The notes beneath the pieces were generated by a model. That model ran no database searches, was not told the origin of the DNA, and saw only the letters and a list, made by a program, of their open reading frames with translations. From the NCBI RefSeq assembly GCF_000246985.2, contig NC_022084.1, positions 429,994 through 493,993 on the forward strand: DNA of 64,000 bases, read 5' to 3'. Both the position numbers and the translations under genes were made by a program. Of this stretch, positions 6,127-57,761 are shown one piece after another. Numbering within the stretch: position 1 is the first letter of the stretch; each line of letters opens with the position of its first letter. This DNA is from Thermococcus litoralis DSM 5473 (GTDB lineage: Archaea; Methanobacteriota_B; Thermococci; Thermococcales; Thermococcaceae).

Positions 6127-6942
6127 TCACCCGATTTTATTCTCAACAATTGAATTAAGCAGAATTAAAAAGCTTTTGTGGACTTCAAGAGGGATGCCGT
6201 CAACACTGAGCTCGGGTTTCTTGGTAACTCCATCTATAATCCCCGAAGAAACCAAAGCCTTCAAAATCTTTTCTTCCTCATTATCCCAACCAGCTATCAT
6301 GTTTTTCCCAAGCTCAATAGATGCCTGAGCGATTAACCCATAAGCCCCCCAGTTGGACACTGCAGAAAGAACTAAAGAATCAACTTCAATAACGCTACCT
6401 ATCTTCTCTCCAAATTTTATATGCTTGCAGACTAAATCCCTTATATTCCCCATCCCTATTTCATTTCCTCCGTCACCGATTCCAATTGTGGGAATGCCAA
6501 GCTCTTTAGCTTTTAAGAATAGCTCATCAAAAGGAGGCACATCTATTTCCAAAGCACTCATTGAGTAGTACTTTCCATCCTTGGCTCTTCCCGGGGTTTC
6601 AACACTTATCAAAAGAGAATAATCCTCAATGGTAGGATTCTTTGCAAAATTAACTTTAAAATCTCTAAGAGCTTCTTGAATCTTTTTACATGTCAATATC
6701 TCGGCTTTTCCCCCTAACTTTTCAACAGTTCTGTAAATTGCTAAAGCTCCTGGTGGACCATCCGTTTCAGCTATCTGCATTGGTGGAATTGGGAAACATG
6801 AAACAACCAAAACTCTATCGAGATTTTCTAAAAATAAGGAAGTAGCTTTTCTCAAAAAATCAAAGTTATCTCTGCGATATTCAAGATAAAGCTTTAAGAC
6901 ATTCCTCCCATAGATGTCGGTGTTTATTAGATGCCCTATCAT
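6127..6942 (-). CDS. DUF4392 / D-glutamate cyclase-like protein
   Basis: A 271-residue protein of the DUF4392 family, related to the C-terminal domain of mammalian D-glutamate cyclase. The key conserved string GIGDGGNEIGMGNI (about residues 154-167) is present, as is the earlier AETDGPPGALAI segment that forms the acidic pocket in this fold. The D-glutamate to 5-oxo-proline reaction is known only for the mammalian relative, so substrate here is inferred. The gene sits between a 59-residue orphan protein and an HD hydrolase, with very short spacings, suggesting a metabolite-repair setting. Confidence 0.8.
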   Translation of the reverse strand: MIGHLINTDIYGRNVLKLYLEYRRDNFDFLRKATSLFLENLDRVLVVSCFPIPPMQIAETDGPPGALAIYRTVEKLGGKAEILTCKKIQEALRDFKVNFAKNPTIEDYSLLISVETPGRAKDGKYYSMSALEIDVPPFDELFLKAKELGIPTIGIGDGGNEIGMGNIRDLVCKHIKFGEKIGSVIEVDSLVLSAVSNWGAYGLIAQASIELGKNMIAGWDNEEEKILKALVSSGIIDGVTKKPELSVDGIPLEVHKSFLILLNSIVENKIG

Positions 6943-6945
6943 CTT

Positions 6946-7125
6946 TCATTCCTCGATTTCATACGCTATGATTTTGACTTTTTTGCCTTTTATTGCCTCT
7001 TTGAGGAGCCACCAAAGTTCCGTTGGAGATTCCTGCCTATGGGTTAGCTTATCACCATTCTCAAGTTCTACAATCTTTTCTTTATATTTTACAAAAATTC
7101 CCTCTTTATTGAATATCTCCTTCAT
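6946..7125 (-). CDS. 59-residue orphan protein
   Basis: A short reading frame (MKEIFNKEGIFVKYKEK..., ending IIAYEIEE) that exactly fills the space between the HAD and DUF4392 genes. Its ATG overlaps the HAD stop codon (ATGA) and its stop is 3 bases before the next gene's ATG. This spacing is good evidence that it is translated. It contains ELWWLLKEAIKGKKVKIIAYEI, probably a helix followed by a beta strand, and has no membrane segment. I do not recognise a family. Confidence 0.75.
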   Translation of the reverse strand: MKEIFNKEGIFVKYKEKIVELENGDKLTHRQESPTELWWLLKEAIKGKKVKIIAYEIEE

Positions 7126-7766
7126 CCTAAACCCCCCAAGATTTTTCTCAGTTGATGAAGGCTCCTAATTTCAAAGTCTGCAAAGTTATAATCCTCCAAC
7201 CCTTCCCTATTGATCCATATTGCAAGCATTCCAACATTTTTTGCTCCGTAGACATCTTGATGCAGATTATCTCCAATCATCATGGCATTTTTAGGCTCTA
7301 CATTTAATTTTTCGCAGGCATATAAAAATATTTTAGGGTCAGGCTTTACAGTTTTTACATCTTCCCTTGTCACAATTACATCAAAGTACTTATCAAGCTT
7401 TGCTATCCTTAGTTTTAGCTTCTGATATTCTGGACCACTTGTTATTACACCGAGCTTATATCCTTCCTCTCTTAGCCATTCCAGAGTCGGCTTTACATCA
7501 GGAAAAACGCGGATCTTGTGGGGATATGCCTTCAAGAGCTCCTCGTATTTAAAATTCAAGCCAAAACTTTCGAAAAAGAAGTTCCAGTCATGCCATTCAT
7601 ACGTATCCCGTTTCTCAGAGAGCTCTCTGAGGAATTTTAACCTAGCATCCCCTCTAGAAATCCCTAACTTCTTTGAGAGCCTTTCATAAACTTGGGGGAG
7701 AAATAGCATCACAAGTGGTCTTTCACTTAAAAGGGTTTCATCTATGTCAAAGAATATTGCATCCAT
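7122..7766 (-). CDS. HAD-superfamily phosphatase (subfamily IA)
   Basis: A 214-residue HAD hydrolase with all four motifs: motif I DIDET (residues 7-11; nucleophile and acid Asp), motif II with ITSGP, motif III Lys in VKPDPKIF, and motif IV GDNLHQDVYGAKN. The helical C1 cap lies between motifs I and II. It probably dephosphorylates a small metabolite; the substrate is unknown. It starts with GGTGGTAAA before the ATG and its stop overlaps the start of the 59-residue gene. It is co-oriented with hps-phi, so a sugar-phosphate substrate is a reasonable guess only. Confidence 0.88.
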   Translation of the reverse strand: MDAIFFDIDETLLSERPLVMLFLPQVYERLSKKLGISRGDARLKFLRELSEKRDTYEWHDWNFFFESFGLNFKYEELLKAYPHKIRVFPDVKPTLEWLREEGYKLGVITSGPEYQKLKLRIAKLDKYFDVIVTREDVKTVKPDPKIFLYACEKLNVEPKNAMMIGDNLHQDVYGAKNVGMLAIWINREGLEDYNFADFEIRSLHQLRKILGGLG

Positions 7767-7767
7767 T

Positions 7768-8523
7768 TTACCACCTCTTAACTAGAAGTGAGAGGATTTC
7801 CACTTGCTCCTCTAAACCCTCCTCCATTTTTATCCCCCATATTATGTCTTTTTCTTTTAAGAGACCTTGAAATGTGCTGAGTATTTTGTGAGCATAACTC
7901 AGAGGGACTTTCTCACCCACTAAAATGTTTACCAAGCCTCTATCCCATATTCCCCAATGCCAGTCGAAATCAACCTTCCTTAAAAGACGGAGTATGCCTA
8001 CGTTGTTCCCCTTTATCATATTAAAGAAATCGGCGTAGTCAACATTCACAAGCATTTGATTTTCCAGGTAGTAGTAGAGCCTAGTGAACATCAATCCAAT
8101 ATTTTTTGCTGCCATTTGAAATGCGGATCCAAGCGAAGAGGATGTGTATTCATCTAGGAATTCCCACAATGAGTCATAAAATACTGTATCAAACTCCTCT
8201 GCCCATTGGGGCTTTTCTTCATTAACAAGCTCCTTCTGAGGAGTAAGGACATAAGCCAACTTAGGGGGTTTTCGTGGTACATATTCAAGAATGACCTGCA
8301 TTATTTCGATATTTATTGGTTTATTCTCAAGTATAAACCATAAAATTGCATCGTCCGGGACATTCCAGAACAAATTCTTAAGATTTTGACGAAAAGACGC
8401 TTTTCCAAGTAGATAATATGTCGGATTTATCACGATCTTTGGAGTCCCTTCTATATCGATGTTTTGAACAACTTTGCCTCCATTATTCCCAATCCCAACA
8501 AAAATATGGGGAAAAGAAGCCAT
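7768..8523 (-). CDS. Divergent FtsZ/tubulin-superfamily protein
   Basis: A 251-residue protein that aligns along much of its length with the canonical FtsZ encoded at 56586-57707. The N-terminal strand-loop FVGIGNNGGKVVQNI matches Fts[17 protein letters not shown]. The segment LVNVDYADFFNMIKGNNVGIL matches [22 protein letters not shown] and keeps the T7 catalytic pattern N-x-D-x-x-D (residues 160, 162, 165). The C-terminal DIIWGIKMEEGLEEQVEIL matches [19 protein letters not shown]. The GGGTGTG signature (T4) is absent: the equivalent position reads ENKPINI. The protein is about 120 residues shorter than FtsZ. Start: ATG 8523 preceded by GAGTGAT; a GTG at 8532 overlaps the hps-phi stop. Role unknown. 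Confidence 0.72.
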   Translation of the reverse strand: MASFPHIFVGIGNNGGKVVQNIDIEGTPKIVINPTYYLLGKASFRQNLKNLFWNVPDDAILWFILENKPINIEIMQVILEYVPRKPPKLAYVLTPQKELVNEEKPQWAEEFDTVFYDSLWEFLDEYTSSSLGSAFQMAAKNIGLMFTRLYYYLENQMLVNVDYADFFNMIKGNNVGILRLLRKVDFDWHWGIWDRGLVNILVGEKVPLSYAHKILSTFQGLLKEKDIIWGIKMEEGLEEQVEILSLLVKRW

Positions 8524-8528
8524 GTGTA

Positions 8529-9749
8529 TCACTCTAAGGTTGCATGTTTTCTCTTCATGTCTTTTTCGGTTTTTTGGAATGTCGCCATTAGTAGTGCTAT
8601 GATACCGTCCAAAAACAGCATCGTTGAGTCTTCAAACAGCGTTCCCATCGGGGCGATCCACTTGTATTCGGTGAGCATTTGCCTTGCAATGTAATCTGTT
8701 GGAATGTCCGTTTTTGTCCTACCTGGGATTTCCACTACAACATCGGCGAGCTTTCCAAGGGTTGAGTCTTTATAGGAGGTTATTGCAACGACTTTTCCCC
8801 CTTGCTTCTTTGCGATTTCAGCTGCATCCACTATAGTTCTTGTTTCACCACTTCCGCTGATGGCGATTAACAAATCACCCTCCTCAAAAGCAGGAGTAAT
8901 TGTTTCACCAACCACGTAGACATTAAAGTCAAGGTGCATCAAGCGCATTGCAAATGCCTTCCCAACCAAACCGCTCCTTCCGGCACCGTAGATGAAGATT
9001 TTATTGGCACCTATCATGGCATCTATCATTCCCCTAACTTGTTCGAGCTTTAAGGAATCAGCAACCATGTTTATGTGTTCGGTAATATCCCTGATCGCTT
9101 TTCTTATGGTAACCATGTACTCTCCCCAGAATAGATCAAGTATTTTCCGAATGACTTCTTCGGGATCCTTTGCCTTTGTTATTGCCCCACCAACGATAAT
9201 AATAGTGGCTCCTGCCTCAATAACCTTTGGAATTGTCTCTAGATTTAAGCCGCCTGCCACAGCAACTGGGACTTTTACAGCCTTTACAACTTTTTCTAAA
9301 TCTTCCAGAGGGTTTTTCCCTTGAGCTTGCTCATCTATCCCAGTGTGAACTAAAATGTAGTGCACACCCATTTTTTCAAGCTCTTTAGCTCTTTTTACCT
9401 TATCTTTAACCCCGATTAAATCAACCATTACCTTTACCCCATATTTTCTTGCAACCATCACGGCATCTTTTATCGTCTTGTCATCTGCAACTCCAAGTAT
9501 TGAGACCACATCGGCACCGTGTCTTGCTGCCATTTCAACTTCAAGAGCCCCAGTATCCATTGTTTTTAAATCTGCCACAATTTTTCTATCCGGGAATCTT
9601 CTTTTCATCAGCTCTACAGCCCTCATGCCTTCCTTCTTTATTAAAGGGGTCCCTACTTCAAGCCAATGAGCTCCACCACGAGCAGCTTTCTCTGCTATAG
9701 AAATTGCCTGTTCGATATCAGTCAGATCAAGCGCTACCTGCAGGATCAT
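8529..9749 (-). CDS. hps-phi: Fused 3-hexulose-6-phosphate synthase / 6-phospho-3-hexuloisomerase
   Basis: A 406-residue bifunctional enzyme of the ribulose monophosphate pathway. In Thermococcales the reverse direction makes ribulose 5-phosphate from fructose 6-phosphate and so replaces the missing oxidative pentose phosphate pathway. Residues 1-210 are the HPS TIM barrel of the OMP decarboxylase fold (VADLKTMDTGALE with the DxKxxD metal/catalytic motif; VAVAGGLNLETI phosphate site). Residues 213-406 are the PHI SIS domain (FIYGAGRSGLVGKAFAMRLMHL; LIAISGSGETRTIVDAA). The start at 9749 has GGGAGGT 9 bases upstream. It is the first gene of a tight minus-strand run. Confidence 0.95.
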   Translation of the reverse strand: MILQVALDLTDIEQAISIAEKAARGGAHWLEVGTPLIKKEGMRAVELMKRRFPDRKIVADLKTMDTGALEVEMAARHGADVVSILGVADDKTIKDAVMVARKYGVKVMVDLIGVKDKVKRAKELEKMGVHYILVHTGIDEQAQGKNPLEDLEKVVKAVKVPVAVAGGLNLETIPKVIEAGATIIIVGGAITKAKDPEEVIRKILDLFWGEYMVTIRKAIRDITEHINMVADSLKLEQVRGMIDAMIGANKIFIYGAGRSGLVGKAFAMRLMHLDFNVYVVGETITPAFEEGDLLIAISGSGETRTIVDAAEIAKKQGGKVVAITSYKDSTLGKLADVVVEIPGRTKTDIPTDYIARQMLTEYKWIAPMGTLFEDSTMLFLDGIIALLMATFQKTEKDMKRKHATLE

Positions 9750-26946: not shown

Positions 26947-27016
26947 GTCCGTCGTGAGCTTTTATGAGTGAGCGTGAGTAAACCTCCGCCCATTCAAATC
27001 AACCCTCACGACGGAC
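26947..27016 (-). ncRNA. Putative TnpB guide-RNA (omega/reRNA) scaffold hairpin
   Basis: A perfect 12-bp inverted repeat (GTCCGTCGTGAG at 26947-26958 and its complement at 27005-27016) brackets the tnpB stop codon. TnpB guide RNAs are known to start within the tnpB 3' end and run to the right end of the element, so a strong structure here fits such a scaffold. The RNA limits are not determined. Confidence 0.5.
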
Positions 27017-28174
27017 TTGGGCTTCATCACGCTCAGCCCCGCTCAGGGCGACCCCAAGTCCCCGCATGAAAACGTTGAAAGCACCAACAAACTGCCTATC
27101 AGCCCCAAAACCACAATTAAAACACTCCACCAGCCCGTTTCGGGACTCCAACTTACTCCCACACACCGGGCAGGTGGATGAAGTATAAGCAGGATTAACA
27201 AACTCAATCGGAACACGGTAAGAAAGCTTTCCAACGATTTTCTTCCAAGTGGCACGGGAAAGCTTCCTGTTGAACTTCCTCGAACCATTCTGGAGCATTT
27301 TGAACTTGTCCAAATCCTCGAAGACGAAAACAGCATCGGGAAACTCCCTCGAAAGCTGGACTGCAAGCTTGTTCAGGTAATCCTCAATCCTGTTTCTCCT
27401 CCTAGTCCAGTATTTTTTAAGGAGAACTCCAATCCTCTTTGGAGCTTTCCGCTGAACGCTTTTTAGCATATCAATAATTCTGTCGTAAGTCTCGGCAATC
27501 CTGTGTAGCTCGCTCAAGTCTACTCTAATCCAGCCCTTTTCAGGGTGAAAGATGTCGAGGCTCGTAAGGTTGCTGTCAATGCTGATTTTGATTCTTCCAG
27601 AGAACTCGACTTCCTTTGAGAAGGTTAGTAGGACATCGTCCTCCCTGATTATCAGCTCACCAACATTCCAGTCCTTAACCCTCTCATAGAACCACTCCTT
27701 CGAGAAGTCCAGCTCAAGGTATTCTTCCCTCGGCTTGATGGTTACCCTTATCTTCGAGCCTTTAACCTTCATTAGTGTTGTTTTAACTCGGATAAACTTT
27801 CTCTTAACGACTGGCTTTGCTCTTCTTCGCTTCCCCTTGAGGTAGTTCTTCCTCCAGCTTTTGAGGATTGAATAAGCGGTCTTTATTGCAGAATCAACGT
27901 AGTGCTTGGCGAAAGGCCACTCTCGGAGGAGTTCGTCCCTCAGTTCTCGCTTGAACTCATTAGACTGCGGAAAATAAGGGATTAGGCGGGTTGTCGTGTA
28001 GTAGCGATAATTTTTTCTTCCGAGAGAATATCTATGCTTAACTCTCTTCTCTCTCCAAGTTGTATTTTCCCATATTTCATCAATTGCCCTCTGGAGTAGT
28101 TTCTGGTATTCCTTGAGGAAGGGATTAACGTTCCAGTCGTGTTGCATTCTGTATGTTAGAACGACTTTAGTCAT
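26999..28174 (-). CDS. tnpB: TnpB RNA-guided nuclease (IS607-associated)
   Basis: A 391-residue TnpB. RuvC catalytic positions are present: D in [15 protein letters not shown] in [11 protein letters not shown] and D in [16 protein letters not shown]. The zinc finger is [20 protein letters not shown]. The N-terminal part is rich in Lys/Arg, fitting RNA binding. It overlaps tnpA by 8 bases, so the two are translated together. TnpB cuts DNA next to a short motif under guidance of the RNA from the element's right end, and so helps the element persist. All motifs are intact, so activity is plausible. Confidence 0.92.
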
Positions 28175-28796
28175 TCTCGACCTCCTCGATTAGTTTTTTC
28201 ACGCTTTCCTTGAGCTTTTTGTATTTGTGGGAGCGCATTCCGTAGAGTTTCCCAGCGAAGTGCGAGATTATTGTTATCAAATCTTCAATGAGTTCTTCTC
28301 GTGGAGATTTTTCTTTCTCGTTGATTACTATTATCTCTGCACCGTTCTCCTTGAAGAAGAATTCGAGAGTTTTGAAACCGAAACGAGTGAGCCTGTCTGG
28401 ATAAGTGATGATGACTTTTGAGACTTCTCCATTTGTCACGAGTTCGAGGAGTTTGCAGTAGTTCTTCCTGTTCTCGTTCAATCCTGAGCCAATGTCTTTG
28501 AGTATTTGGACTTGCCAGCCTCGTTCTTTTGCGTATTGGTCTATTGCTTTGACTTGTCTTTCTAAGTCGTCTTTTTGTGTGTGGCTTGATACCCTTGCGT
28601 AGCCAATGATTAAGCCTTTCTCCTCGGTTATTCCGAGAAGTCTTTTTATTTCGCTTTCTGGTATTCTCCTCCTTCCGCCGGGTGTTCTAATGGTTTTGAT
28701 TTTCCCTTCTCTGTCCCATTTTTGGATTGTCTTTGGGTGGACGCCGAGTATTTCACTCGCTTGCTTCACCGTGTAGAGCTTCTCTTTCACTACCAT
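28167..28796 (-). CDS. tnpA: IS607-family serine recombinase TnpA
   Basis: A 209-residue transposase. Residues 1-55 are a MerR-like HTH ([28 protein letters not shown], then [14 protein letters not shown]). The resolvase catalytic domain follows, with the nucleophilic Ser in [15 protein letters not shown] and the conserved [11 protein letters not shown] choose the ATG at 28796; a GTG at 28814 would add six residues. IS607 TnpA catalyses recombination through a circular intermediate with little target preference. It overlaps tnpB. Confidence 0.92.
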
Positions 28797-28910
28797 ACAC
28801 TCACATTTATTCACGAAAATATTTAAAGCTTTCGATTAAAAAGAACTGTTAAGCAAGACAACCAAAGGAAATATAAAAGAGTATCGACAAACTAAGAGAG
28901 GGGAGGTAAA

Positions 28911-30546: not shown

Positions 30547-31408
30547 CCCCGCCCTAAAGGACGGGGTTTCCGTCAAAGAAACCCCTACCCTAAAGGCAGA
30601 GAGGTTTGAGGGGCTTCATTAAAGCCCCAACTAAAGCGGGCTTTCAACCCCTCTGGGGTGGCCACACCCCAATTACCCCTACCTCCCGACAAACCCGAGA
30701 GGCTCGGGGTTATCGTTTTGGCAACCTTCTTTAAAATATTAAACGCTCCAACGAGGTCAGCATTCATTACAACGCCCTCCCTATGGCACTTAAACAATCT
30801 TCCGAGTCTCATCATAGGTTATTTCCAATCTTCCTTGCTTGCCTTTGAGGTAGATTCTCCCCTTGAACTGGATTCTAAGCTTTCCAAACTTCCCAAGTCT
30901 TCTAAGCTCCAAAACGTTTCCATCAATCTTATACTGGTCGTTCCTTAGGAGGATTACGAAGAGCTTTTTGCCATTCCTTTCCCTTATGAACGCTGGTGGT
31001 TTTGGTTTTAACCAACTGGGTAATTCGCCAGACTTTTTCTTCTTCGAAAGGGTGAAGAAACTCCTCCAGCTTTCAGAGTTCTTTCTGGAAATCTGCTGGA
31101 CTGTTGAGCCACCTATCCAGTCTTTGAAATTGTGATAGGCTTCTTTTTCTGTTCCAGCGAAGTCTATTTTTCCGAAAGCTCTAAATTGCTTTAGCCTTTC
31201 ATAGTTTATTTTATTCCATACGATAGCGGTAGCTTGGGCCAATTCGAAGAGTGCTTTCTCTTGCTCTTTCGAGGGTTGTAGTTTTACTGTTATTGTCCGC
31301 TTCATCTTAAGATATGGTATGATTTTTAGGCTTTAAAATAGTTTTTGCTTTCCTGATTTAGAGCTAAGTTTTAGAACTCTTTACCCCGCCCTAAAGGGAC
31401 AGGCTTGA
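30547..31408 (-). mobile_element. Decayed IS200/IS605-type TnpB element inside pepQ
   Basis: Both edges carry the 14-base string CCCCGCCCTAAAGG in the same orientation (30547-30560 and 31384-31397). At the 30547 end it is part of a hairpin (CCCCGCCCTAAAGGACGGGG). The other flank holds TTTAAC on the minus strand (31409-31414), the known IS605 target motif. Only a truncated tnpB is inside and there is no Y1 transposase, so the element cannot move by itself. Confidence 0.7.
30585..31305 (-). pseudogene. tnpB: TnpB with internal deletion
   Basis: The first 165 residues are a normal TnpB N-terminus (MKRTITVKLQPSKEQEKALFELAQ to GRLEITYDE). After 30790-30815 the frame changes and continues directly into the TnpB C-terminal end (FKCHREGVVMNADLVGAFNIL). 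About 180 residues, including the first two RuvC motifs and most of the zinc finger, are gone. The string GGAAGATTG occurs twice around the junction, about 29 bases apart. The product cannot be an active nuclease. Confidence 0.8.
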
Positions 31409-32099
31409 GTTAAAGAGAAAGTCAAGTATCACGAAGTCTCCGGGTCTTATTTTTCTGTTACCTGGCGTATGGTGAGGATTTGCAGCGTTTTCGCCAGATG
31501 CCACTATAGGAGAGAAAGAGACACCGTCTGCCAGTTCTCTAATGAGAAACTCAATTTCCAGTGCAACCTGCTTTTCACCCTTCCCGATCAATTCCCTGCT
31601 TATTATTTCGTAGAAAACTTTATCTGCAATTTCAGCGGCTTTCTTCATCAGGCTTAGTTCCTTTTCGTCTTTGCGCATTCTTAGTTCTCTTGTAATACCA
31701 CTCAGCGGATAGAGAGTGCAGTCCTCCAAAAGTCGCTCAATGTGGATTAGAAAGCTCGCCCTCATTGTATCTTCCACCAGGATCTTACCGCCCTTCAAAT
31801 TCAGAGAAGCTAACACCCTTTCAAGGATTTCATAGGGGTTCTCTTCATCGCTCCAGAATACTGAATTTTCCCATTCAACCTCGTTTTCGTAGAGCTTGGG
31901 CGCTATTAGAACGCTTTCTCCTTCTTTATTGACTACAAGGAGAAAAAGCCTTTCTTCAGTTGCTTGAGGAGCCATTCCAGTCAGGTAATAGAGGTTGCTA
32001 CTGGGAGTTATTAATGCACCATCATAATCATCTTCCCGAAGAAACTCCAAGAATTTCTTCATCCTGTCCACATATACCACCATGAAGAAACTCGCGGGC

Positions 32100-32112
32100 A
32101 AAATTTATAAGG
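32100..32112. promoter_or_regulatory. TATA element readable in both directions (pepQ remnant and tRNA-Arg)
   Basis: AAATTTATAAGG. On the plus strand it lies about 30 bases before the tRNA-Arg 5' end; on the minus strand CTTATAAATT lies about 20-25 bases before the likely start of the pepQ message. Confidence 0.5.
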
Positions 32113-32136
32113 CCTCTCCCAAAGTTTTCTTGGGTT

Positions 32137-32214
32137 GCCCCGGTGGCCTAGTCTGGATAGGGCGCGAGGCTGCGGACCTCGAGGTCCGGGGTTCAAATCC
32201 CCGCCGGGGCGCCA
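32137..32214 (+). tRNA. tRNA-Arg (anticodon GCG), CCA encoded
   Basis: Acceptor GCCCCGG pairs with CCGGGGC; the anticodon stem CGAGG/CCTCG closes the loop CTGCGGA, giving anticodon GCG. The T arm holds GGTTCAAATCC. Discriminator G, then an encoded CCA. Confidence 0.95.
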
Positions 32215-32351
32215 CATCTTATTCTCATATTCCACAATAATAAAAACGACCAAAAATTTTTAAATAACGCCTAGTAATTAAAATACAGAGCGTTTCTCAT
32301 ACGCCGCATTTCCCCACTCCGAAACAAAGTAGTATTCTGGAGGTGGTAGAG

Positions 32352-32441
32352 ATGATAGAGGACGCGTTGATGCTCTATCTGCTCAGCAATGCAGGAACCA
32401 ACCAAAAGAAGAAAAAGAAAAGAAAGCTCCTGGTTCTTTGA
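32352..32441 (+). CDS. 29-residue protein with Lys-rich tail
   Basis: MIEDALMLYLLSNAGTNQ followed by six K/R residues, then KLLVL and stop. GGAGGTGGTAGAG, a perfect ribosome-binding site, precedes the ATG, and a TATA-like ATTTTTAAATAACG lies at 32256-32268. The N-terminal half would form an amphipathic or membrane-surface helix. No larger gene uses this stretch between the tRNA and the phosphoesterase-fold gene. I know no family for it. Confidence 0.55.
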   Translation: MIEDALMLYLLSNAGTNQKKKKKRKLLVL

Positions 32442-32516
32442 TCCTTCCGAATTTCGAAAAGCTTAAATACTCCTTTTTAGTAAAATAAAGTTAGAAAAAT
32501 TGGGGGGGTGGTAGGA

Positions 32517-33272
32517 ATGGCATACGTGGCAGTACTGGCGAACATCAACGGAAACTTCCCAGCCCTCATGAAAGCCCTCGGAAAAATTGAGGAACTCAAA
32601 GAAGAAGGCTACGAGATTGAAAAATATTACATCCTCGGAAACATAATTGGATTGTTCCCCTATCCAAAGGAAGTTCTTGATGCTCTTGATGACCTGATAA
32701 AGACCAACAATGTAAAGATAATCAGGGGAGAATTTGACCAGATAATAGCCATGAGTGATCCCCATGCCGAAGGGCCGGATTATATCGATGAACTTGCAAT
32801 CGAGCCGTATGTAAAGAAGGCATTAAAATACACCTGGGAAAAGCTTGGCCATGAAGGAAGGGAGTTCATAAGAGATTTGCCTATATACCTAGTTGATAAA
32901 ATAGGCAAGAACGACATTTTCGGGGTCTACGGAAGCCCATTAAACCCCTTCGAGGGCAAGGTTCTTCCAGAGCAGCCTACCTCATACTATGAAGCCGTCA
33001 TGAGACCGGTAAAGGACTACGAACTTCTATTAGTAGCATCACCAAAACTCCCGGTCAATGCCATGACAAGGTACGGAAGGGTAGTATGTCCCGGCAGCAT
33101 TGGATTCCCACCGGGAAAAGAGCACAAAGCAACTTTTGCCATCATAAACGCTGATAACCTGCACACAAAATTCGTAGAAGTTGAATATGACAAGAAGATC
33201 ATAGAGGACAAAATAAGAGCAGAAGGATTACCAGAGGAGCTCATTAAAATCCTCTATCACGGAAAGGTTTAA
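32517..33272 (+). CDS. Calcineurin-like phosphoesterase fold with lost metal ligands
   Basis: A 251-residue protein with the layout of MJ0936/YfcE-type phosphodiesterases, but the metal motifs are changed. DxHGN is now NINGN (residues 9-13), the GD of motif 2 is GN in YYILGNIIGLFPYP, GNHD is GEFD in KIIRGEFDQI, and GHTH is replaced by ASPKLP. The structural string PGSIGFPP (normally NPGSVGxPR) is kept. It is therefore predicted to be non-catalytic. It has its own TATA (AAGCTTAAATACTCC) and an SD (GGGGGGTGGT) before the ATG at 32517. Function unknown; a binding role is inferred. Confidence 0.75.
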   Translation: MAYVAVLANINGNFPALMKALGKIEELKEEGYEIEKYYILGNIIGLFPYPKEVLDALDDLIKTNNVKIIRGEFDQIIAMSDPHAEGPDYIDELAIEPYVKKALKYTWEKLGHEGREFIRDLPIYLVDKIGKNDIFGVYGSPLNPFEGKVLPEQPTSYYEAVMRPVKDYELLLVASPKLPVNAMTRYGRVVCPGSIGFPPGKEHKATFAIINADNLHTKFVEVEYDKKIIEDKIRAEGLPEELIKILYHGKV

Positions 33273-34567
33273 ACAGCTCGAACACCCTTTTTATTTCTTT
33301 TCTGAATATTCCAACGTATGCCACAAAAGCTAATAACAGGAGAGTTTTTGAGAGAAATACAGTGAACTGCAGTAAAAGAGCTACAGCAAATTGAGTATAA
33401 GAAGTGAGCGAAACTCCCAGCTTCTTGTTTGCCACAACTAATGTGCCAGTTAGTATCGTTAGATATCCCAGAAAGAGCCCGAAAACAGCCCCATATTCTC
33501 CAAAAGGGCTTATCGAGAATATCCAAGCAGCGAGAGAAACCACAGCGCCCAGGAGTGAAATTATGGTCCCTTCTTTTACATATTTTGTCGAGTTCAGCGC
33601 CACTATGCTGGGGGTTGTACGCTATATACGTTTCTACCGCCATGAGAGTTAGGTAGAACTCTCTACCCAGATTAAACCCAAAGAGTAGCGATAAAATTTC
33701 TCTTCCGACAAGCATAAGGATAAAAACCGCCAAAGCCACTATAAAGGACAGCAGCTTCGTGGAGTCTTCAGCAAGTCTCTTCACGTATTCCATCTCATTT
33801 TTCCCATATTTGTAAGAGTATAAGGGCATTATCGCAGATTGAAGCACCTGAGGCAGGTAAGTCAACAAAAATGCCGCCGAAAGAGAAGCCGAAACAATGC
33901 CTGCAGCTTCGGGAGAAGCAAGCTTCTCGGTTAGGAAGTATGGGGCTTGAATAAGAAAAACCCCCGAAACTGTCCCAAGAAATGCAAAGCTGGAATACCT
34001 CAAAAGAGGTTTAAGGGTCTCCAAGGAGGGTTTTCCAAACAGCCTCTCCCTAAAAAGGTACAAAAATCCAAAAATGGCCACGCCAGAAAGAAGGCCAATG
34101 TAGGGGAGGTAGTAATTTTCCGACAAAAATCCTCCAATAAATAGCACAAACGCTCCAATCATTGTATAAGCGTAAACCTCACCTTTGTGAAGGCCATAGA
34201 TAAAGCTGCGAAACGTCAGCTGGAGAGCCCTCAAGACTGCCAGGATGGCCAGATAAAAGTTAAAAGGAACTAAAACCAAGCCAGCTAAAGGGAAAGAAAA
34301 TCCCAAAGTTGCTATGGACTTTATTTTTTCCATTTCTCCCCTCCCTAGAAACTCGGAGGCATACTTCCCCAGAGCAACTGCAAAAAAGCTTAGGGGAACT
34401 GCCAGTAAAAATGCCTGTGATATAAGTGAATTTACTTTTCCCAAAACTTCGACACCGAATCTTCTTGAGATAACTATGCTGTAAATAAGCCTGCTGAGGC
34501 CAAAGAGAGCAAGGGCAACTATACTCGCTATTGAATGCCGAAGCATAACTTTTCTCTCATAACTCAT
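33244..34567 (-). pseudogene. Polysaccharide flippase (MOP/Wzx-like), frameshifted
   Basis: A membrane protein of about 440 residues with 12-14 helices, similar to O-antigen/polysaccharide exporters. The frame is broken in a run of five C (minus strand; 33610-33614). With one C removed the sequence reads AYNPSIVALNSTKYVKEG and continues without a gap to the end at 33244 (FELFKPFRDRGF). The lineage pattern GKVNSLISQAFLLAVPLSFF near the N-terminus and YLPQVLQSAIMPLYS fit the family. It would flip lipid-linked sugars outward. It lies just downstream of FUN14 on the same strand. Its last 29 bases overlap the convergent phosphoesterase-fold gene. Confidence 0.8.
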
Positions 34568-56585: not shown

Positions 56586-57707
56586 TTAAAGCTCGGTTAA
56601 GTCGAGCTTAATAACTTTCTTTTCTTCCTCTGGGGAATATGAGATCTCAGATTCTTCAACTACTGCATATGGAGAGCTGACTCCAGTCACAACGACCATT
56701 ACTCTGATAGCCTTTTCGAGTTCTGGATCAAGCTGTATTCCCCATATCACCTGAGCCTCTGGATCAAGCTTGCTTGTCACGAGTTCAATTATCTGTTGTG
56801 CCTCCTCAAGTTTAACATCACTTCCCGCAATGCTTATTAAAGCCCCTTTAGCACCGCTTATGTCGACGTCGAGCAATGGGCTGTTTAATGCCTGTGTTGC
56901 TGCTTCCAAAGCCCTCTTTTCACTATCGCTCTCACCAATGCCAATCATTGCAACGCCGCCGTCTTTCATGACCGCCTTCACATCCGCAAAGTCAAGGTTA
57001 ATTAGACCTGGCTTTGTAATTAGTTCTGTAATGCCCTTAACAGCCTGAACAAGAATTTCATCAGCAACTTTGAATGCCATATGAATTGGCAAATTGGGCG
57101 CAACTTCCATAAGCTTGTCGTTCGGAATGACTATAACAGTGTCGCTGTTCTTTCTAAGCCTCTCAAGGCCATATTCAGCGTTTTTAATTCTTCTTATTCC
57201 TTCAACAGTAAACGGAAGCGTTACTACAGAAACCGTTAGCGCCCCCATTTTCTTTGCTAGCTCCGCAACTATTGGAGCGGCACCAGTTCCAGTTCCCCCT
57301 CCAAGACCGCATGTTATGAAGACCATGTCGGCTCCTTCAAGAGCATCTCTAATATCTCTCTCGCTTTCTTTTGCAGCCTCTTCGCCAACTTTTGGATTGT
57401 TTCCAGCACCAAGCCCCCTTGTAAGCTCTTTACCAATAAGTATCTTTTTGTGAGCTTTTATCTTTAAAAGATCCTGAGCATCAGTGTTAACAGCAATTAT
57501 TTTGGCACCTTGAATTCCAACTTCCATCATTCTATTAACGGTGTTACAGCCCGCACCACCGACACCGATGACATATATCTTTGCCTGCACTTGTTCTAGT
57601 ATTTTCTTAAGCTCCTCATCAATGTCAGAAGATGGGGCTTGTACTTCAACTGAAGCATTTGTCTCGGCGGAGGTTCTTTCTATCGCGTTTTCAATTAGTT
57701 TCAACAT
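56586..57707 (-). CDS. ftsZ: Cell division GTPase FtsZ
   Basis: A 373-residue canonical Fts[15 protein letters not shown], the T4 signature [21 protein letters not shown], the T7 loop [17 protein letters not shown] and the C-terminal domain with [17 protein letters not shown]. It ends with a short acidic tail ([12 protein letters not shown]). I choose ATG 57707 (GGGAGGGTGAAAAG before it); an upstream in-frame ATG at 57752 would precede this site. Compare the degenerate paralogue at 7768-8523. It heads the secE-spt5-stalk gene run, with a 125-base gap before secE. Confidence 0.97.
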
Positions 57708-57761
57708 CTTTTCACCCTCCCATATCGATAACAGTTCTAAATGTTTTTTCACATTCTCTAC

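Follow-up and report, generated by a model that had tools for sequence, protein, structure and literature searches.

A predicted FtsZ-fold family of the Thermococcaceae with a half-kept filament interface

The window analysed here, a 64,000-nucleotide stretch of the Thermococcus litoralis genome, encodes a canonical FtsZ1 and, apart from it, a 251-residue protein with an FtsZ-like T7 loop and no T4 loop. Is this protein, here called pseudo-FtsZ, a genuine relative of FtsZ, and what might a relative of this kind do in the cell?

The gene, its fold and its homology to FtsZ

Translation of pseudo-FtsZ from the ATG at 8523 (Table 1) is likelier than from the GTG at 8532 (254 aa), which overlaps the stop codon of the upstream HPS-PHI gene. 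The downstream HAD gene begins one nucleotide past the pseudo-FtsZ stop. Given this overlap and the 1-nt junction, pseudo-FtsZ lies within a tight gene cluster that is probably an operon. At 251 aa the protein is ~137 residues shorter than the FtsZ1 of the same window (388 aa), close to the figure of about 120 given in the original prediction, which had been drawn from the letters alone. The FtsZ2 and CetZ genes of T. litoralis are located outside the 64-kb window.

Table 1. Coordinates (window numbering) of pseudo-FtsZ, its sequence elements, the adjoining genes and the FtsZ1 used for comparison.
Feature	Position	Strand	Remarks
Pseudo-FtsZ gene	7768..8523	-	251 aa from ATG 8523; stop at 7768-7770
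T1-like loop GIGNNG, residues 10-15	8479..8496	-	G 48/48, G 48/48, G 47/48
Lost T4 site, NKPIN, residues 67-71	8311..8325	-	FtsZ counterpart GLGGGTGTG
S6/T6 strip TVFYDS, residues 113-118	8170..8187	-	most conserved element of the family; FtsZ T6 Asn lost
Long central helix H7, residues 131-155	8059..8133	-	from the AlphaFold2 model
T7 loop MLVNVDYAD, residues 157-165	8029..8055	-	N160, D162, A164, D165 invariant, 48/48 each
Tryptophan-rich loop VDFDWHWGIWDRG (WHWGIWDRG), residues 184-196, tightest 185-196	7936..7971	-
S9 strip EKDIIWGI, residues 224-231	7831..7854	-	second conserved T7-side contact element
Fused 3-hexulose-6-phosphate synthase / 6-phospho-3-hexuloisomerase (HPS-PHI), upstream	8529..9749	-	NF041755, 551 bits
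HAD-type hydrolase, downstream	7122..7766	-	TIGR02253 family, 183 bits
D-glutamate cyclase-like C-terminal domain protein, next gene	6127..6942	-	PF14336
Canonical FtsZ1, same genome (comparison)	56586..57752	-

The proposal that the protein has an FtsZ fold agrees with structure prediction. The AlphaFold2 models of the window protein (pLDDT 86, pTM 0.87) and of a distant orthologue (pLDDT 89, pTM 0.88), which are not fully independent since their alignments have members in common, both show tubulin/FtsZ topology, with two domains and the long H7 helix between them. For both orthologues, the best 50 fold matches in the PDB are FtsZ throughout, with E-values from 4e-12. The TM-scores of these matches (0.61-0.77) and their rmsd (~5-7 Å) support a shared predicted fold and not an identical placement of the domains.

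Profile-profile comparison gives E 1.7e-12 against Thermococcales FtsZ2 (residues 109-244) and E 7e-9 against Thermococcales FtsZ1, in a collinear match over residues 8-246. For residues 109-246, the score is 91, as against 12-21 in 20 column shuffles and 16 with the reversed profile, and the reversed-profile control against FtsZ2 gives E 0.32; with the controls at background, the similarity of this region to FtsZ is far above chance. The N-terminal half is weak by sequence alone, its 104 residues giving E 0.015 (residues 8-39, in register with T1-S2), and its identity as the FtsZ N-terminal half is drawn from the collinear order of its elements, the presence of GxGxxG and the fold predicted for it. 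The three FtsZ-like blocks that had originally been matched by eye, namely the T1 loop, T7 and S9, are indeed collinear in the alignment. A fold unlike tubulin or a profile similarity at chance level would have spoken against the original prediction, and the analysis returned neither.

The window protein matches no Pfam family, scores 13.6 bits against TIGR00065 (cut-off 295), and finds only weak FtsZ matches when used singly as a query. Across the family, the NCBIfam ftsZ model is matched at E<=0.01 by 36 of the 48 members (best 1.9e-8) and FtsZ_C by eight, and no member reaches the curated cut-off of the ftsZ model (295 bits). In the PDB, the family profile finds the FtsZ of M. jannaschii at 1.2e-7, and in the genomes of relatives it finds FtsZ at down to 1.8e-10.

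With a pairwise identity to FtsZ of only ~13-22%, the reading frame could be decaying or meaningless, or its resemblance to FtsZ fortuitous; we consider this extremely improbable. Chance resemblance is ruled out by the reversed and shuffled profiles, and the predicted fold also matches FtsZ. A pseudogene is ruled out by a dN/dS of 0.05-0.14 between close species, indicative of strong purifying selection, and by retention of the gene in all genera.

That retention is close to complete. Pseudo-FtsZ was found in 89 of 94 Thermococcaceae genomes, covering six of six genera, and in 72 of the 74 near-complete ones; the members from this search are 48-100% identical and nearly always full-length. Genuine absence from the other five genomes was rejected, and assembly gaps are the best reading of them, because HPS-PHI is missing or cut in the same genomes: three (G050, G057 and G036) are without an HPS-PHI orthologue, and in two (G062 and G064) a contig ends within HPS-PHI. 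In G057, the HAD gene is present with its first 16 residues missing. Among the 396 genomes searched (216 genera), the 302 outside the Thermococcaceae yielded no match at E<=1e-12, and in other members of the class the profile matches ordinary FtsZ only. No relatives were found in viral contigs or plasmids, and fold comparison with viral proteins brought up ordinary phage FtsZ/tubulin; a viral or plasmid origin was rejected on these grounds. We conclude that pseudo-FtsZ is a lineage-specific core gene of the Thermococcaceae, normally present in single copy. In one genome (G070 C2:360947-361853), a second, broken copy, split and with an internal TGA, adjoins 32 codons from the end of an HPS-PHI-like gene and looks like a decayed segmental duplication.

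Motifs and contact faces kept and lost

Motif counts were taken from a joint alignment of 48 pseudo-FtsZ members with FtsZ1, FtsZ2 and CetZ. The loss of the T4 motif GGGTGTG, first noticed in the window protein, extends to every aligned member: in 48/48 sequences, eight of the nine T4 positions are deleted (the last one remains), the canonical signature GGGTG(T/S)G is absent, and T3 is deleted entirely. Furthermore, the whole family has other residues in place of T2 Asp and Gln, T6 Asn and H7 Asp, and the alignment shows gaps where FtsZ has the T5 Glu-Gly and the H5 Arg. The T5 Pro is retained in nearly all members, and the invariant E98 near it may be the counterpart of the T5 Glu. The T1-like GxGxxG is the sole nucleotide loop whose pattern is preserved (GIGNNG in the window protein versus GVGGAG in FtsZ). 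A GxGNNGGK loop had originally been read here; the loop is present, but that wording is valid for close relatives only, the family pattern being F-x-G-I-G-x-x-G. Judging from these sequences, we infer that pseudo-FtsZ is unable to bind GTP in the manner of FtsZ.

The T7 synergy loop of canonical FtsZ, NxDxxD, is found in pseudo-FtsZ with N, D and D in 48/48 members (VNVDYAD in the window protein, VNIDFAD in FtsZ2 and INLDFAD in FtsZ1). The survey of the Thermococcales that the original prediction called for thus returns the same combination, T7 kept and T4 lost, in the whole family. The S9 block of the window protein, EKDIIWGIKMEEGLEEQVEIL, aligns to the S9 of FtsZ. The tryptophan-rich loop is specific to pseudo-FtsZ, nearly invariant, and occupies the place of FtsZ helix H9; most members terminate at S10, without a C-terminal tail of the FtsZ type. 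Many aromatic residues are invariant as well. Since TVFYDS, the element of highest conservation, is positioned on the nucleotide side of the fold, the pocket may accommodate a new ligand or play a part in the core, and its sequence suggests that it is still functional in some way.

These observations can be set against the geometry of the FtsZ filament. Structures of S. aureus FtsZ filaments show four contact regions, with H10, S9, H8 and T7 on the upper subunit and the H6-H7 loop, T5, T3 and H1/H2 as their counterparts on the lower one; T7 residues N208, D210 and D213 complete the active site of the neighbour, and in current models monomers join the T7-exposed growing end via their GTP face (PMC8936486). 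In pseudo-FtsZ, none of the 41 positions in the T7-side contact elements is missing, and their mean conservation is 1.12 times the average. On the nucleotide side, defined as its contact elements together with T1, T4, T6 and the start of H7, 33 of 80 positions are missing and the remainder stands at 0.96 times the average. The contrast has a permutation p of 0.005, in a test whose elements were chosen according to PMC8936486 but which was run after the pattern had already been noticed; the same test in FtsZ2, FtsZ1 and CetZ gives no contrast (p 0.66, 0.86 and 0.88). A homopolymer of pseudo-FtsZ is disfavoured, as it would require the eroded nucleotide face. It should also be noted that only 12-13 of the 41 T7-side consensus residues are identical to FtsZ, and that the conservation of T7 and S9 may be due to folding or to another partner.

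Place among tubulin-superfamily proteins

In nine Thermococcales genomes, PF00091 identifies exactly three proteins per genome, FtsZ1, FtsZ2 and CetZ, and the pseudo-FtsZ family lies below Pfam detection. As each tested genome also has those three, pseudo-FtsZ would be a fourth tubulin-superfamily protein. It is not a canonical FtsZ, given the missing T4 signature, yet its predicted fold and its profile place it in the superfamily. A published survey reports one CetZ per Thermococcales species and one further divergent protein in two strains only (PMC9856176), and some archaeal FtsZ paralogues have long been known to be without key motifs (PMC2875224). We found no description of the pseudo-FtsZ family in the open-access literature, and it is apparently undescribed so far.

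With Thermococcales FtsZ2, its closest profile match, and FtsZ1, pseudo-FtsZ shares the fold, the order of elements, the T7 NxDxAD, the IWG of S9 and the T1 GxGxxG. It differs from both in the deletion of T3/T4, the replaced guanine and phosphate contacts of T2, T6 and H7, the tryptophan-rich loop in place of H9, the missing C-terminal tail, and its length (251 aa versus ~390-440). In the tree its branch, a very long one, is next to Thermococcales FtsZ2; placement with FtsZ1 or CetZ is less probable, though the tree test does not reject it. The best explanation of the alignments and predicted models is a Thermococcaceae-specific, degenerate FtsZ paralogue.

CetZ belongs to the same superfamily and is likewise found once per Thermococcales genome. 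However, it retains T4 and has Thr at the T7 position where pseudo-FtsZ keeps Asn. Assignment of pseudo-FtsZ to CetZ was rejected, since these patterns differ and comparison of its profile with Thermococcales CetZ gives no significant similarity (hhalign probability 1.2%, E 0.042). The families FtsZl1 and FtsZl2 (Makarova and Koonin 2010, PMC2875224) are, like pseudo-FtsZ, divergent and FtsZ-like, but their pattern is the opposite one: both retain the T4 GTP loop, and FtsZl1 is without recognisable T6-H7 and later elements. FtsZl1 carries a coiled coil and a helical region, and FtsZl2 a C-terminal alpha/beta region of ~300 aa (PMC2875224). With no T4, 251 aa and no extra domains, pseudo-FtsZ is set apart from both by their published description.

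In other archaeal groups, clusters of three to five adjacent tubulin-superfamily genes were seen (G150 C1:900648-905695, G170 C54 and G115 C37; L140-L149). Other members of the class have additional, fast-evolving FtsZ2-like paralogues beside ordinary FtsZ1 and FtsZ2 (L067 in G112 and L118 in G110).

Gene neighbourhood and possible roles

At all loci examined, in six genera, HPS-PHI lies directly upstream of pseudo-FtsZ and the HAD gene directly downstream; the glutamate-cyclase-like gene is the next one in most genera and was not found in the g2 and g6 loci. In these archaea, HPS-PHI produces ribulose-5-phosphate for nucleotide synthesis (PMC12628685). Elsewhere in the window, on the minus strand, are an IS607-like element (26999-28814) with a serine resolvase bearing a MerR-type HTH and a TnpB/Cas12f1-like protein, and a run of damaged-looking genes (30790-34567) comprising a short OrfB (30790-31305), a truncated M24 prolidase (31391-32101) and a polysaccharide flippase (33269-34567) whose C-terminal part is apparently out of frame.

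The conserved flanks, with their overlapping or 1-nt junctions, support a reading in which pseudo-FtsZ is an accessory or regulatory subunit of sugar-phosphate metabolism, its FtsZ fold serving as a scaffold or sensor with HPS-PHI and HAD and taking no part in division. Its changed pocket, with the invariant aromatics and TVFYDS, would then have a sugar phosphate, or some other small molecule, as its ligand. Nevertheless, the HPS-PHI enzymes of P. horikoshii and T. kodakarensis are described as performing the reaction unaided (PMC12628685), operon sharing often reflects shared expression only, and the invariant NxDxAD and the better-kept T7 face are left unexplained. We regard this role as rather unlikely, though it is the foremost alternative to an action on FtsZ.

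Because pseudo-FtsZ has apparently lost its own GTP pocket and kept the surface that triggers the GTP of a neighbouring FtsZ, it is a possible unrecognised regulator of division. By sequence and predicted fold it has the FtsZ body, H7 and an intact T7 side (T7, H8, S9 and H10). We propose, with a probability of roughly 45%, that its T7 docks onto the GTP face of FtsZ, so that subunits are sequestered or discharged or filaments are capped, and that pseudo-FtsZ itself is not extendable. As it would bind no GTP in the FtsZ fashion, its upper face could not join a filament. Its N160, D162 and D165 would come to lie against the GTP-carrying face of a subunit of FtsZ1 or FtsZ2; occupation of this face would sequester GTP-loaded subunits, and the docked protein might trigger GTP hydrolysis in them. 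Alternatively, it would cap the top end of an FtsZ filament. In each of these cases the division ring would be restricted or remodelled. The direction of the original suggestion, a cap or regulator of FtsZ filaments, is favoured to this extent, as the one-sided conservation of the interface fits a putative cap or regulator that uses its T7 face only.

In favour of such docking, the T7 NxDxAD is invariant in 48/48 members even though Thermococcales CetZ has lost the Asn, and both FtsZ1 and FtsZ2 are present in the Thermococcales as possible targets. Against it, the neighbouring genes belong to metabolism rather than to division, and TVFYDS, the most conserved element, is on the nucleotide side. 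The latter, together with the nearly universal T1 GxGxxG and T5 Pro, is more in line with a protein that forms no cap but joins FtsZ1/FtsZ2 assemblies laterally, or another partner, as a co-polymer or scaffold, its shortened pocket still binding a nucleotide or ligand; the tryptophan-rich loop in the place of H9 may form a new contact surface. The deletion of T3/T4, the family-wide replacement of T2 Asp/Gln, T6 Asn and H7 Asp, and the lack of an FtsZ-type tail past S10 speak against such a co-polymer, which we judge unlikely.

There are precedents for the proposed action on FtsZ assembly. ARC3 of plant chloroplasts is an FtsZ1/FtsZ2-binding inhibitor of Z-ring assembly with an FtsZ-derived part (PMC5855766), but it is a eukaryotic chimera with a MORN domain and serves as a functional precedent only, not as a demonstrated relative. 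MciZ, which caps filaments (PMC8936486), and SulA, which sequesters subunits (PMC5832921), both act on FtsZ assembly, as is proposed for pseudo-FtsZ; unlike the latter, they are not described as FtsZ relatives, and MciZ binds the bottom (T7) face of FtsZ, whereas pseudo-FtsZ would sit on the GTP face. More weakly, the shared operon with an HPS-PHI that makes ribulose-5-phosphate suggests that the action of pseudo-FtsZ is tied to sugar-phosphate supply. A more specific form of the idea, which we hold to be doubtful, is a GTPase-triggering cap in trans that would lend its T7 without having a GTP face of its own, and so couple division to the supply of nucleotide precursors via the HPS-PHI operon.

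Taken together, the sequence comparisons and predicted models indicate that pseudo-FtsZ is a new family of a known superfamily with an unusual, half-kept interface. It can also serve as a natural experiment, to see which elements of the tubulin fold outlast the loss of GTP binding. A core, family-wide FtsZ relative that retains a single interface makes a good candidate regulator, and its role is approachable in Thermococcus kodakarensis, which is genetically tractable.
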